Assembly: GCF_003046475.1 (NCBI RefSeq)
Contig: NZ_PZZZ01000002.1
Coordinates: 62,001-126,000 of the forward strand
Origin: Mycoplana dimorpha
Lineage (GTDB): Bacteria > Pseudomonadota > Alphaproteobacteria > Rhizobiales > Rhizobiaceae
Direction of reading: 5' to 3'
DNA length: 64,000 bases
Below are positions 50,047 to 63,081 of this stretch, piece after piece (the first letter of the stretch is position 1; each line of letters opens with the position of its first letter). Below the pieces are notes generated by a model that saw only the letters and a program-made list of their open reading frames with translations, searched no databases and was not told where the DNA came from. Both the position numbers and the translations under genes were made by a program.

Positions 50047-50290
50047 ATCACTTCCGCGCCCGTCTCATGGACGGAGTCTCATTCGTTGAAAGGGAAACTG
50101 CCAGCCGTGCACTGATGTATCCGGCATCACGGCGAAAAGGCAAGATGGCGGGCCGCCGGCGGGCAAGGAAAGCCATGACATCGTCGCCGCCTTGAACGGG
50201 AAACATCATGGCCGTGTCCTTGTTCGTCGTCCGCCTCTTCTGCACCGGAAAGGCCGGCCGCGCGGGTCGCGGCCGGGTGATGGTCGTCAA

Positions 50291-52207
50291 TCAGGAGGCC
50301 GACCGCTTGCGGTCGTCGTCGTCCTTGACTTCCTCGTAATCGGCGTCGACGACATTGTCGCCGCCCTCGGATGCCGAAGACGCGCCGGCTTCCGCCTGCT
50401 GGGCCTCGTAGATCGCCTGGCCGAGCTTCATGGAGACTTCCATCAGCGTGTTGGTCTTGGCCTTGATGTCCTCGGCGTCCGGCTCGGAGGCCTCGATGGC
50501 CGTCTTCAGAGCGGCGATAGCATCCTCGATGGCCTTGCGGTCATCGGCGGAGACCTTGTCGCCGTATTCCTTGAGCGACTTTTCGGACGAATGAACAAGG
50601 CTCTCGGCCTGGTTCTTGGCCTCGACCGCCTCGCGGCGCTTCTTGTCGCTCTCGGCGTTGGCCTCGGCGTCCTTGACCATCTTCTCGATGTCGGCGTCGG
50701 ACAGGCCGCCCGATGCCTGGATGCGGATCTGGTGCTCCTTGCCGGTCCCCTTGTCCTTGGCCGAAACCTGGACGATGCCGTTGGCGTCGATGTCGAAAGT
50801 CACCTCGATCTGCGGCACGCCGCGCGGCGCCGGCGGAATGCCGACGAGGTCGAACTGGCCGAGCAGCTTGTTGTCGGCAGCCATTTCGCGCTCGCCCTGG
50901 CTGACGCGGATCGTCACGGCGGACTGATTGTCCTCGGCGGTCGAGAAGGTCTGGCTCTTCTTCGTCGGGATCGTCGTGTTGCGCTCGATCAGACGGGTAA
51001 AGACGCCGCCGAGCGTTTCGATGCCCAGCGACAGGGGGGTGACGTCGAGCAGCAGAACGTCCTTGACGTCGCCCTGCAGCACGCCTGCCTGGATGGCGGC
51101 GCCCATGGCAACCACTTCATCCGGGTTGACGCCCTTGTGCGGCTCCTTGCCGAACAGTTGCTTGACGGTCTCCTGGACCTTCGGCATGCGGGTCATGCCG
51201 CCGACGAGGACGACCTCGTCGATCTCGGCAGCCGAGACGCCGGCATCCTTGAGCGCGGCCTTGCAGGGGGCCATCGTCTTCTGGATCAGGTCGTCGACCA
51301 GCGCCTCGAACTTGGCGCGCGTCAGCTTCATCGTCAGGTGCTTCGGACCGGATGCGTCGGCGGTGATGAACGGCAGGTTGATCTCGGTCTGCTGCGACGA
51401 GGAGAGCTCGATCTTGGCCTTCTCAGCAGCTTCCTTGAGACGCTGCAGGGCCAGCTTGTCGTTCGTCAGGTCGATGCCCTGGTCCTTCTTGAACTCGCCA
51501 GCCAGGTACTCGACGAGGCGCATATCGAAGTCTTCACCGCCGAGGAAGGTATCGCCGTTGGTGGACTTCACCTCGAACACGCCGTCGCCGATCTCGAGAA
51601 CCGAGATGTCGAAGGTGCCGCCGCCAAGGTCGTAGACGGCGATCGTCTTGCCGTCCTTTTTGTCCAGGCCGTAGGCGAGGGCAGCCGCGGTCGGCTCGTT
51701 GATGATGCGGAGCACTTCGAGGCCGGCGATCTTGCCGGCGTCCTTTGTGGCCTGGCGCTGGGCGTCGTTGAAGTAGGCCGGAACGGTGATGACGGCCTTC
51801 TCGACCTTTTCACCGAGGTAGGACTCGGCGGTCTCCTTCATCTTCTGAAGGATCATGGCGGAGATCTGCGAGGGGGAGTAATCGGTGCCGTGTGCCTCGA
51901 CCCAGGCATCGCCGTTGCCCGCCTTGACGATCTTGTAGGGCACCATGCCCTTGTCCTTCTGGGTGGTCGGGTCGTCGAAGGTGCGGCCGATCAGGCGCTT
52001 GATCGCAAAAAGGGTGTTTTCCGGATTCGTCACCGCCTGGCGCTTGGCCGGCTGGCCGACGAGACGTTCGCCATCTTCCGTGAAGGCAACCATGGAGGGC
52101 GTCGTGCGGGCGCCTTCGGCGTTCTCAATGACTTTCGCGTCCTTGCCATCCATGACGGCGACGCAGGAATTTGTCGTTCCGAGGTCGATACCGATAACTT
52201 TTGCCAT
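50291..52207 (-). CDS. dnaK: Chaperone DnaK (Hsp70)
   Basis: 638 residues. ATPase domain with [17 protein letters not shown] and [21 protein letters not shown]; linker [17 protein letters not shown]; substrate domain and helical lid ending in a Gly/Ser-rich and acidic tail ([13 protein letters not shown]). The start at 52207 (MAKVIGID) has AAGGAGAG upstream; the longer frame to 52252 is not conserved. A heat-shock type promoter candidate lies about 110-140 bases upstream. Confidence 0.98.
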
Positions 52208-52316
52208 GTCATTCTCTCCTTGAAGCGAACTGCCCGGAACCCGATCAGGCATTCGTCTGGCAGCCCCTAGTGGGATGGTATTGCAGGAATTCGCGACGGA
52301 ACGCCGCGGTTTCCGG

Positions 52317-60042: not shown

Positions 60043-63021
60043 ATGAAAAACGGTGATCATCTCTTCCTCGTCGACGGTTCGGGCTTTATCTTTCGCGCCT
60101 TCCATGCGATCCCGCCGCTCAACCGCAAGTCGGACGGCCTGCCCGTCAATGCCGTGTCCGGCTTCTGCAACATGCTGTGGAAGCTGCTCAAGGACGCGCG
60201 CAGCACCGATGTCGGCGTGACGCCCACCCACTTCGCGGTCATCTTCGACTACTCTTCGAAGACCTTCCGCAACGAACTGTACGACCAGTACAAGGCCAAC
60301 CGCACCGCGCCGCCCGACGATCTCATCCCGCAGTTCGGACTGATCCGCCATGCGACGCGTGCCTTCAACCTGCCCTGCATCGAGAAGGAGGGCTACGAGG
60401 CCGACGACCTGATCGCGACCTATGCCCGACTCGCCGAGGAGGCCGGCGCAGACGTCACCATCATCTCTTCCGACAAGGACCTCATGCAGCTCGTGACCTC
60501 AAAGGTCTCGATGTACGACAGCATGAAGGACAAGCAGATCGCCATTCCCGAGGTCGTCGAGAAATGGGGCGTCACCCCGGACAAGATGATCGATCTGCAG
60601 GCGATGACCGGCGATTCGACCGACAATATCCCCGGCATCCCGGGGATCGGACCGAAGACGGCGGCCCAGCTCCTGCAGGAGTTCGGCGACCTCGACACGT
60701 TGCTGGCGCGGGCCGATGAGATCAAGCAGCAGAAGCGTCGCGAAAACATCATTGCCAACCGCGAGCAGGCGCTGCTGTCGCGCCAACTGGTTACGCTGAA
60801 GACCGACACGCCGCTCGACACCCCGCTGGATGAGCTGCAGCTCGAGCCGCAGGACGGCCCGAGGCTGATCGCCTTCCTGAAGGCGATGGAGTTCAATGCG
60901 CTGACCCGGCGCGTCGCCGAGGCGTGCAACTGCGACGCATCGGCGATCGAGCCGGCTTTCGTTCCTGTCGAATGGGGCACCGATGCGCACGGTCCGGATC
61001 TCGACATCGTAGCCGGCCGACCACTCACCGACGACGCGCTGAGCGCAGCGCAAGCGGCCGGGACGTTGTTGCCGGACGCCTCTCCGGACGCGCCGACCCC
61101 GGCCGCCCTGGCAAAGGCGCGCGCCGCTTTCTTCTCCGGCCGGCCGTTCGACCGCTCGGCCTATGTGACGATCCGCGACCTTGCAACCCTCGACCTCTGG
61201 CTCGCCGCTGCGCGTGAAACAGGTCTTGTCGGCTTCGCCGCCGCGACCACGACGGCCGACGCCATGCAGGCAGAACTGTGCGGCTTCTCGCTGGCGATCG
61301 CCGACAACGCCAAGGATCCGGCCGGCGCGTCCATCCGGGCCGCCTACGTTCCAATGCAGCACAGGACCGGCGACGGTGACCTGCTCGGCGGCGGACTTGC
61401 GGAAGGGCAGATCCCCATTGGCGAGTCGCTGGCGCGGCTGAGGCAGCTGGTCGAGGATCCTTCCATCCTGAAGGTCGCACAGAACCTCAAGTTCGATTAC
61501 CTGGTGCTGAAGCGGCACGGGATGGCCATCCAGAGCTTCGACGACGCCATGCTGATCTCCTATGCGCTCGACGCCGGCGCAGCCGCCCATGGCATCGACT
61601 CGCTTTCGGAGCGCTGGCTCGCCCACAAGCCGATCGCCCTGAAGGACGTGGCCGGCAGCGGCAAGGGGGCGCAGAGCTTCGATCTGGTCGACATCGACCG
61701 CGCGACCGCCTTTGTGGCCGAAGACGCCGACATCACGCTGCGCCTCTGGCACGTGCTCAAGCCGCGGCTTGCGGCCGAAGGGCTGACGACCGTCTACGAG
61801 CGGCTGGAGCGGCCGCTGGTGCCCGTGCTCGCCCGCATGGAGGAGCGCGGCATCACGATCGACCGGCAGGTGCTGTCGCGCCTTTCGGGCGAGTTGGGCC
61901 AGGGCGCAGCCGCGCTCGAGGACGAGATCTACCAGTTGGCAGGCGAGCGCTTCACCATCGGCTCGCCCAAGCAGCTCGGTGACATCCTGTTCGGCAAGAT
62001 GGGGCTGCCCGGCGGCGCCAAGACGAAGACCGGCCAGTGGTCGACATCGGCGCAGGTGCTGGAGGATCTCGCCGCCGAAGGCGTGCCGCTGCCGCGCAAG
62101 ATCGTCGACTGGCGCCAGCTGACGAAGCTGAAATCCACCTATACGGACGCGCTGCCCGGCTACGTTCATCCGCAGACCCGGCGCGTTCATACCTGCTATT
62201 CGCTGGCATCGACGACGACGGGACGGCTTTCCTCGACCGAGCCGAACCTTCAGAACATCCCGATCCGCACTGGCGAGGGGCGCAAGATCCGGGCTGCCTT
62301 CATCGCCTCGCCGGGACACAAGCTCGTTTCGGCCGACTACAGCCAGATCGAGTTGCGCGTGCTGGCGCATGTCGCCGACATTCCGCAACTGCGGCAGGCC
62401 TTCGCCGAGGGGATCGACATTCACGCCATGACGGCGTCGGAAATGTTCGGCGTGCCGGTCGAGGGCATGCCGGCGGAGGTGCGCCGCCGCGCCAAGGCCA
62501 TCAACTTCGGCATCATCTACGGCATTTCGGCCTTCGGTCTCGCCAATCAGCTCTCCATCGAGCGCTCCGAGGCGGGCGACTACATCAAGCGCTACTTTGA
62601 GCGTTTCCCCGGCATCCGGGACTACATGGAGTCGACCAAGGCCTTTGCCCGTGAAAACGGCTATGTCGAGACGATCTTCGGCCGCCGCGCCCATTACCCG
62701 GAGATCAGGTCGTCCAATCCCTCCGTTCGGGCCTTCAACGAGCGCGCCGCAATCAACGCCCCCATCCAGGGCTCGGCCGCCGACATCATCCGCCGGGCCA
62801 TGATCAAGATGGAACCGGCGCTCGAGGCCGGAAAGCTCTCCGCCCGCATGCTCCTGCAGGTGCACGACGAACTGGTGTTCGAGGTCGAGGAGACCGAGGT
62901 CGAGCGCACTCTGCCGGTCATCGTCGAAGTGATGGAGAATGCGGCGATGCCCGCACTCGCCATGAAGGTCCCGCTGAAAGTGGATGCGCGGGCGGCCGAC
63001 AACTGGGACGAGGCGCACTGA
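60043..63021 (+). CDS. polA: DNA polymerase I, proofreading motif I altered
   Basis: 992 residues. The 5'-3' exonuclease domain (about 1-300) is intact: LVDGSGFIFRAFHA, EGYEADDLIATYA, SDKDLMQLV, GDSTDNIPGIPGIGPKTA. The polymerase domain (about 600-992) is intact: motif A SADYSQIELRVLAH, motif B RRRAKAINFGIIYG, motif C QVHDELVFE. In the 3'-5' exonuclease domain motif I reads GFAAATTTADAM: residues 399 and 401, normally Asp and Glu, are both Ala. Motif II keeps Asp485 (NLKFDY) and motif III keeps Asp561 but has Phe557 where E. coli has Tyr. Proofreading is therefore expected to be lost or very weak. Confidence 0.96.
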   Translation: MKNGDHLFLVDGSGFIFRAFHAIPPLNRKSDGLPVNAVSGFCNMLWKLLKDARSTDVGVTPTHFAVIFDYSSKTFRNELYDQYKANRTAPPDDLIPQFGLIRHATRAFNLPCIEKEGYEADDLIATYARLAEEAGADVTIISSDKDLMQLVTSKVSMYDSMKDKQIAIPEVVEKWGVTPDKMIDLQAMTGDSTDNIPGIPGIGPKTAAQLLQEFGDLDTLLARADEIKQQKRRENIIANREQALLSRQLVTLKTDTPLDTPLDELQLEPQDGPRLIAFLKAMEFNALTRRVAEACNCDASAIEPAFVPVEWGTDAHGPDLDIVAGRPLTDDALSAAQAAGTLLPDASPDAPTPAALAKARAAFFSGRPFDRSAYVTIRDLATLDLWLAAARETGLVGFAAATTTADAMQAELCGFSLAIADNAKDPAGASIRAAYVPMQHRTGDGDLLGGGLAEGQIPIGESLARLRQLVEDPSILKVAQNLKFDYLVLKRHGMAIQSFDDAMLISYALDAGAAAHGIDSLSERWLAHKPIALKDVAGSGKGAQSFDLVDIDRATAFVAEDADITLRLWHVLKPRLAAEGLTTVYERLERPLVPVLARMEERGITIDRQVLSRLSGELGQGAAALEDEIYQLAGERFTIGSPKQLGDILFGKMGLPGGAKTKTGQWSTSAQVLEDLAAEGVPLPRKIVDWRQLTKLKSTYTDALPGYVHPQTRRVHTCYSLASTTTGRLSSTEPNLQNIPIRTGEGRKIRAAFIASPGHKLVSADYSQIELRVLAHVADIPQLRQAFAEGIDIHAMTASEMFGVPVEGMPAEVRRRAKAINFGIIYGISAFGLANQLSIERSEAGDYIKRYFERFPGIRDYMESTKAFARENGYVETIFGRRAHYPEIRSSNPSVRAFNERAAINAPIQGSAADIIRRAMIKMEPALEAGKLSARMLLQVHDELVFEVEETEVERTLPVIVEVMENAAMPALAMKVPLKVDARAADNWDEAH

Positions 63022-63081
63022 GCCGGCGGCCGCCTTCTCCCGATCCGTTGCGGGACCGTTTACCACGCCGGGACCTTTTGA

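Follow-up and report, generated by a model that had tools for sequence, protein, structure and literature searches.

A naturally substituted proofreading site in the DNA polymerase I of Mycoplana dimorpha, and apparently repeated losses of this site across the Rhizobiaceae

The window analysed here is a stretch of 64,000 nucleotides from Mycoplana dimorpha, a member of the Rhizobiaceae, and near its end lies polA, the gene for DNA polymerase I (Pol I). The features on which the argument draws are listed below in window coordinates, with the corresponding residues of the E. coli enzyme where these are needed.

60043..63021, + strand: polA, DNA polymerase I, 992 amino acids; sole copy found in the genome (NCBIfam TIGR00593)
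60061..60855, + strand: 5'-3' nuclease domain, residues 7-271 (Pfam PF02739 and PF01367); conserved sites intact
61165..61770, + strand: 3'-5' exonuclease domain, residues 375-576 (Pfam PF01612); family recognised, catalytic site degraded
61237..61245, + strand: codons 399-401, Ala-Ala-Ala against E. coli D355-T356-E357; metal ligands gone
61255..61257, + strand: codon 405, Ala at the E. coli L361 position (Klenow alignment)
61492..61497, + strand: codons 484-485, Phe-Asp, equivalent to E. coli Y423 and D424; Tyr replaced, ligand D424 retained
61639..61641, + strand: codon 533, Leu at the E. coli F473 position, placed by the Klenow (PDB phmmer) alignment
61711..61725, + strand: codons 557-561, Phe-Val-Ala-Glu-Asp, equivalent to E. 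coli Y497...D501; motif III Tyr replaced, ligand D501 retained
61867..63012, + strand: polymerase domain, residues 609-990 (Pfam PF00476); conserved sites almost all intact

The protein is a DNA polymerase I (PolA, TIGR00593 / PRK05755): it matches TIGR00593 over its full length with 938.3 bits (cut-off 600) and NF004397 with 1187.3 bits (cut-off 720), it has both the 5' nuclease and the family A polymerase domain, the latter scoring 527.6 bits against PF00476, and its conserved sites are intact in these two domains, with changes at 0 of 139 5' nuclease sites and 2 of 214 polymerase sites, as an earlier note on this DNA had stated for their motifs. The exonuclease domain is recognised by PF01612 with 54.8 bits against a cut-off of 23.6. 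Most of polA is also crossed in antisense by a GTG-started open frame of 855 codons (window 60499-63066, − strand), which is probably a by-product of high-GC codon usage. Elsewhere in the window, a match to the Pfam family NAD-GH (PF10712) lies antisense to dnaK (50192-52267 on the + strand against 50291-52252 on the − strand), and this looks like a spurious family made of reverse-strand frames.

At the centre of the analysis stand the bases 61237-61245, which read GCC GCC GCG and encode the F-A-A-A-T found where F-D-T-E-T is expected; they are in frame, and the frame is open over all 992 codons, which excludes a frameshift at the motif. In the phmmer alignment against the PDB, F-A-A-A-T pairs with the F-A-T-A-T of chain 1d8y, the top match, whose own sequence has Ala at 355 and 357, so that A399 occupies the D355 position and A401 the E357 position. 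The Klenow alignment is free of gaps around the motif, and the idea that an adjacent segment supplies a displaced D-x-E can therefore be discarded; a second PolA supplying the function is likewise excluded, as the genome has a single PolA match. The same alignment places F557 at Y497, D485 at D424 and D561 at D501. The earlier note had read all of these bases and residues correctly, and its description of the protein as a natural counterpart of the exo-minus Klenow double mutant holds for the two alanines, with a loss of activity that would follow by analogy.

Decay of the site extends beyond the ligands. Relative to E. coli, the protein further has Ala at T356, Thr at S360, Ala at L361, Phe at Y423 and Leu at F473, as well as the conserved-site changes T502A, M518I and A558V, while the equivalents of Q419, N420, T358, D424 and D501 are retained. 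Among the 215 relatives with an intact site, the L361 position (codon 405) is L, I or V in all 215 and the F473 position Tyr or Phe in 212; Phe at the Y423 position occurs in 19. F473 has a docking role for the primer, and the E. coli D355A/E357A double mutant is without exonuclease activity and serves as exonuclease-free Klenow. With A, A, D, D and F at the positions of D355, E357, D424, D501 and Y497, the domain falls outside the active DEDDy proofreading exonucleases; since it is kept while ligands 399 and 401 are replaced, the protein would belong with the Pol I type whose 3'-5' exonuclease is inactivated, as in Helicobacter pylori and exo-minus Klenow. Metal-binding roles have been described for D355, D424 and D501 (PMC3121766), L361A reportedly disrupts the binding of DNA at the Klenow exonuclease domain, and D424A has been used to abolish exonuclease activity (both PMC7952088). 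An AlphaFold model built from 36 sequences is weak overall (mean pLDDT 60.1, pTM 0.44; the first 200 residues average about 79), and although Foldseek ranked 1d8y first for it, a TM score of 0.36-0.38 and an rmsd of 19 on such a model give this ranking little weight.

The relatives in the same genus make these changes appear recent. All six other genomes of the genus that we examined (G001-G006) keep F-D-T-E-T, Y497 and all ligands, an alignment with relatives being the check that the earlier note had proposed. Two other fidelity proteins are present throughout: DnaQ scores above its curated cut-off in 7/7 genus genomes and MutS above its cut-off in 7/7, and as judged from their sequences both look intact in this genome, its DnaQ having a DTETTG motif close to the start and its MutS the nucleotide-binding (Walker A) motif GPNMGGKST.

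To resolve constraint by domain, we defined conserved sites as those at least 98% conserved among the 215 intact relatives (PolA proteins with all ligands), within the bounds of residues 10-290 (5' nuclease), 373-580 (exonuclease) and 590-992 (polymerase). Six of 45 such sites are changed in the exonuclease domain (D399A, E401A, T502A, M518I, Y557F and A558V) compared with 2 of 353 in the two other domains (Fisher p 3.6e-5). The excess persists when the five catalytic positions are left out (3/40 against 2/353, p 0.008), and that many exonuclease changes occur in only 1 of the 215 intact proteins (0.5%). The comparison with the sister genome G003 gives a broader picture, with dN ratios (this genome over G003) of 1.92 for the exonuclease, 1.87 for the 5' nuclease and 1.81 for the polymerase domain, and with unique changes of 26 against 5 (p 0.0002), 11 against 3 (p 0.057) and 17 against 4 (p 0.007), respectively. 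An acceleration of the exonuclease only is thus unsupported as stated, all three domains having a dN of ~1.8-1.9 times that of G003, and it is the conserved-site test, rather than the dN ratios, that tells the domains apart. Four control proteins show no excess of unique changes over G003 (DnaK 7 against 6, PBP1 21 against 17, DnaQ 5 against 7, MutS 8 against 14; DnaK was assigned from its sequence and PBP1 by TIGR02074), so that no genome-wide rise in rate is seen in them, and dS in this genome does not exceed that of G003 in any compared protein; with synonymous divergence not raised, no mutator signature is visible. The whole of PolA is under weaker or altered constraint, and it is mainly the exonuclease domain that shows this at otherwise conserved sites. 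The earlier note had proposed relaxed selection on Pol I proofreading in this lineage: the domain-resolved test and the controls bear out relaxation in the exonuclease domain, whereas its confinement to that domain does not hold, dN being raised across PolA, and neither does its being peculiar to the lineage, in view of some 20 ligand-change events on the family tree.

These events emerged from a set of 325 PolA loci in the Rhizobiaceae; after exclusion of L008, whose match is short and weak, and of L214, which has no single open frame, 323 loci with 289 distinct proteins were retained. Among the 289, 74 differ in one or several of the four ligands, a proportion that is not a frequency, because genomes with failed motif patterns were fetched deliberately and the set is enriched for losers. 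The replacement is non-acidic in 65 of the 289 (the strict count), and the other 9 of the 74 show only Asp/Glu exchanges and may, to judge by their residues, keep some activity. Nine lost proteins, that of M. dimorpha included, are found among the 142 fetched of the best 150 places listed from 394 family genomes. Six peptide patterns matched 486 loci, of which the best 80 are the named ones; 10 of these 80 are lost as well, a count that is not free of bias because two of the six patterns sit in the exonuclease domain. Motif scans of the 394 genomes miss motif I in 131, motif II in 89 and motif III in 88, but these misses include codon and residue variants as well as 7 genomes with no PolA match, so that no frequency is drawn from them. 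In the genus Sinorhizobium, ligand changes occur in 25 of the 33 genomes examined (21 of 33 on the strict count); losers known by name include S. americanum CFNEI 156, S. psoraleae CCBAU 65732, Ensifer aridi LMR001 and Ensifer sp. BR816, and the PolA of S. fredii USDA 205 is intact.

On a PolA tree made with FastTree without the exonuclease columns, the ligand states need at least 19 changes (20 on the strict count), and with midpoint rooting the lost proteins form 22 separate clades, so that Pol I proofreading would appear to have been lost separately about 19-22 times in the family; 11 of the 19 loss contrasts fall on well-supported branches. Replacements vary by lineage and include Arg with Gly, Gln with Gly, Ala with Glu, Lys, and Gln with Ala, a variety suggestive of decay that occurred independently. 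Other conserved exonuclease sites are changed at a mean of 3.1 of 40 in lost proteins against 0.26 in intact ones, and conserved polymerase sites at 3.7 of 213 against 0.76. When independent pairs are compared on supported branches, an average of 6.6 of 11 show the exonuclease trait together with loss and 0.0 show the opposite (median p 0.016); for the polymerase trait, the corresponding averages are 3.9 and 0.1 of 11 (median p 0.125). The L361 position is non-aliphatic in 28 of 74 lost proteins against 0 of 215 intact ones, and its independent-pair tally is one-sided; in the independent-pair tests, neither L361 loss (median p 0.25) nor F473 (median p 0.06) reaches significance. Within Sinorhizobium, the exonuclease domain of the 25 lost proteins lies farther from the genus Ensifer than that of the 8 intact ones (p 0.003 without the catalytic sites), and no added distance is found in the 5' nuclease (p 0.11) or the polymerase (p 0.92), these p values ignoring relatedness.

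Several individual cases in the family deserve mention. Isolate R129_A (L074) has Gln at E357 and Ala at D424, while isolate R129_N (L073), which has the same R129 label, keeps all ligands; a recent loss is a possible source of the difference. In the genus g63, of which 7 genomes were seen, a clade of five (L138, L140, L141, L318 and L325) has the conservative change of D424 to Glu with the other ligands kept, and alongside it Ala or Ser at L361. A genome of 1.1 Mb in the same family has a PolA match (G012:C1:542648-545266) in which the 5' nuclease part (query 1-317) is still open and the polymerase part consists of short matched pieces, several with stop codons; this is a reduced genome with the 5' nuclease kept and the polymerase decayed. 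In two further family genomes (G014 and G077, 96 and 99% complete), no match to PolA was obtained at E values up to 0.001 with two candidates per genome scored, where a miss is possible.

Taken together, we consider it highly probable that this is a single-copy Pol I whose proofreading domain is now a structural remnant, with relaxed selection as the most likely cause. The proposed course would start from the changes at two of the four ligands (D355 and E357), at the motif III Tyr and at the docking residues L361 and F473: with ligands and docking altered together, a mismatched primer end should be neither held nor cut, PolA would be without exonuclease activity, mismatches in Okazaki fragments and repair patches would presumably be left to MutS, and the 3'-5' domain may have been kept as a scaffold. 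Relaxed selection would be a natural reason: only short stretches are copied by Pol I, and DnaQ and MutS are still present, so that Pol I proofreading should be cheap to lose, as its repeated loss in the family suggests. The retained D424 and D501 make trace activity possible, and a domain still above the Pfam cut-off speaks against full decay. As polymerase and 5' nuclease are accelerated almost like the exonuclease, a general relaxation or an adaptation of the whole PolA would also be acting.

A sequencing or assembly error at codons 399-401 is another explanation to weigh, the species being represented by one genome, available as assembly sequence only. Such an error is scarcely credible, since it would have to extend from these three codons to 405, 484, 502, 518, 533, 557 and 558, in a frame that stays open through 992 codons and in an assembly that is 100% complete with 0.4% contamination; six conserved-site changes over ~160 codons of open frame themselves make error unlikely. 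A more biological objection is that a one-metal or rebuilt site drawing on D424, D501 and nearby residues might sustain residual exonuclease activity, for which the kept equivalents of D424, D501, N420, Q419 and T358 offer material. We regard this as very unlikely, as the D355 and E357 positions are both Ala, the matching E. coli double mutant is the exonuclease-free Klenow, and the side chains of L361, F473 and Y497 are lost, which should weaken docking too.

The loss could also be adaptive, in that a Pol I free of proofreading extends mismatched or lesion-blocked ends and might be selected for translesion synthesis or mutability. Its recurrence in the family, with some lineages losing primer docking together with catalysis, fits this account, as does the faster polymerase domain of this PolA, which could reflect retuning, and a precedent exists in H. 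pylori Pol I, for which such a role has been argued (PMC3121766). Yet different ligands have changed to many different residues, which resembles decay rather than a selected state, the polymerase domain of the lost Sinorhizobium copies is not accelerated, and the synonymous divergence of the present genome is not raised; we therefore hold adaptive loss to be improbable. A wider version, likewise improbable, is that Pol I proofreading is being lost across the Rhizobiaceae in an ongoing, repeated and convergent way, catalysis going together with L361 docking, because a Pol I free of it is favoured in these soil-dwelling and symbiotic bacteria, for example when gaps are filled across damaged DNA. 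Decay under relaxed selection remains the reading that we prefer. The published survey treats the absence of Pol I proofreading from so many bacteria mostly phylum by phylum (PMC12926913). Some 20 apparent losses beside intact sisters offer matched pairs for the study of mutation rate, strand bias, lesion bypass and fitness, and make the family a natural test of the need for Pol I proofreading; if the activity is truly gone, wild bacteria with replicative proofreading and MutS would be able to do without the 3'-5' domain of a textbook enzyme.

Among known systems, the closest is the exo-minus Klenow D355A/E357A of 1d8y, the top PDB sequence match, with Ala at the same two metal ligands, whereas the present PolA is natural and has in addition Ala at L361 and T356, Leu at F473 and Phe at Y423 and Y497. 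H. pylori belongs to a different phylum, and unlike in its case the congeners of this genome still have the site. Its Pol I (HP1470) has been shown biochemically to be without proofreading and resembles the present protein in an exonuclease fold that is likely preserved with ligands missing; it differs in that D355, D424 and D501 are the missing residues and in that the species is described as having no translesion polymerases (PMC3121766). A survey of 2026 in NAR reports a substituted DEDDy site in about half of PolA1 proteins, the same state as here, with a loss that is largely phylum-specific and most frequent in Firmicutes, Tenericutes and Actinobacteria, whereas the loss described here is at species level and repeated within one proteobacterial family; its main text contains none of the words Rhizobi, Hyphomicrobiales or Alphaproteobacteria (PMC12926913). 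The Pol I enzymes of Bacillus stearothermophilus and Thermus aquaticus are also among the PDB matches of this PolA. Their proofreading domains are vestigial too, but through old losses, whereas in the present case congeners keep the site and PF01612 is still above its cut-off. No paper on the loss of Pol I proofreading in rhizobia was among the matches listed in the open-access literature. A Pol I without proofreading is thus already known, and what is new is its apparently recent, species-level and repeated loss in one proteobacterial family with intact sisters.
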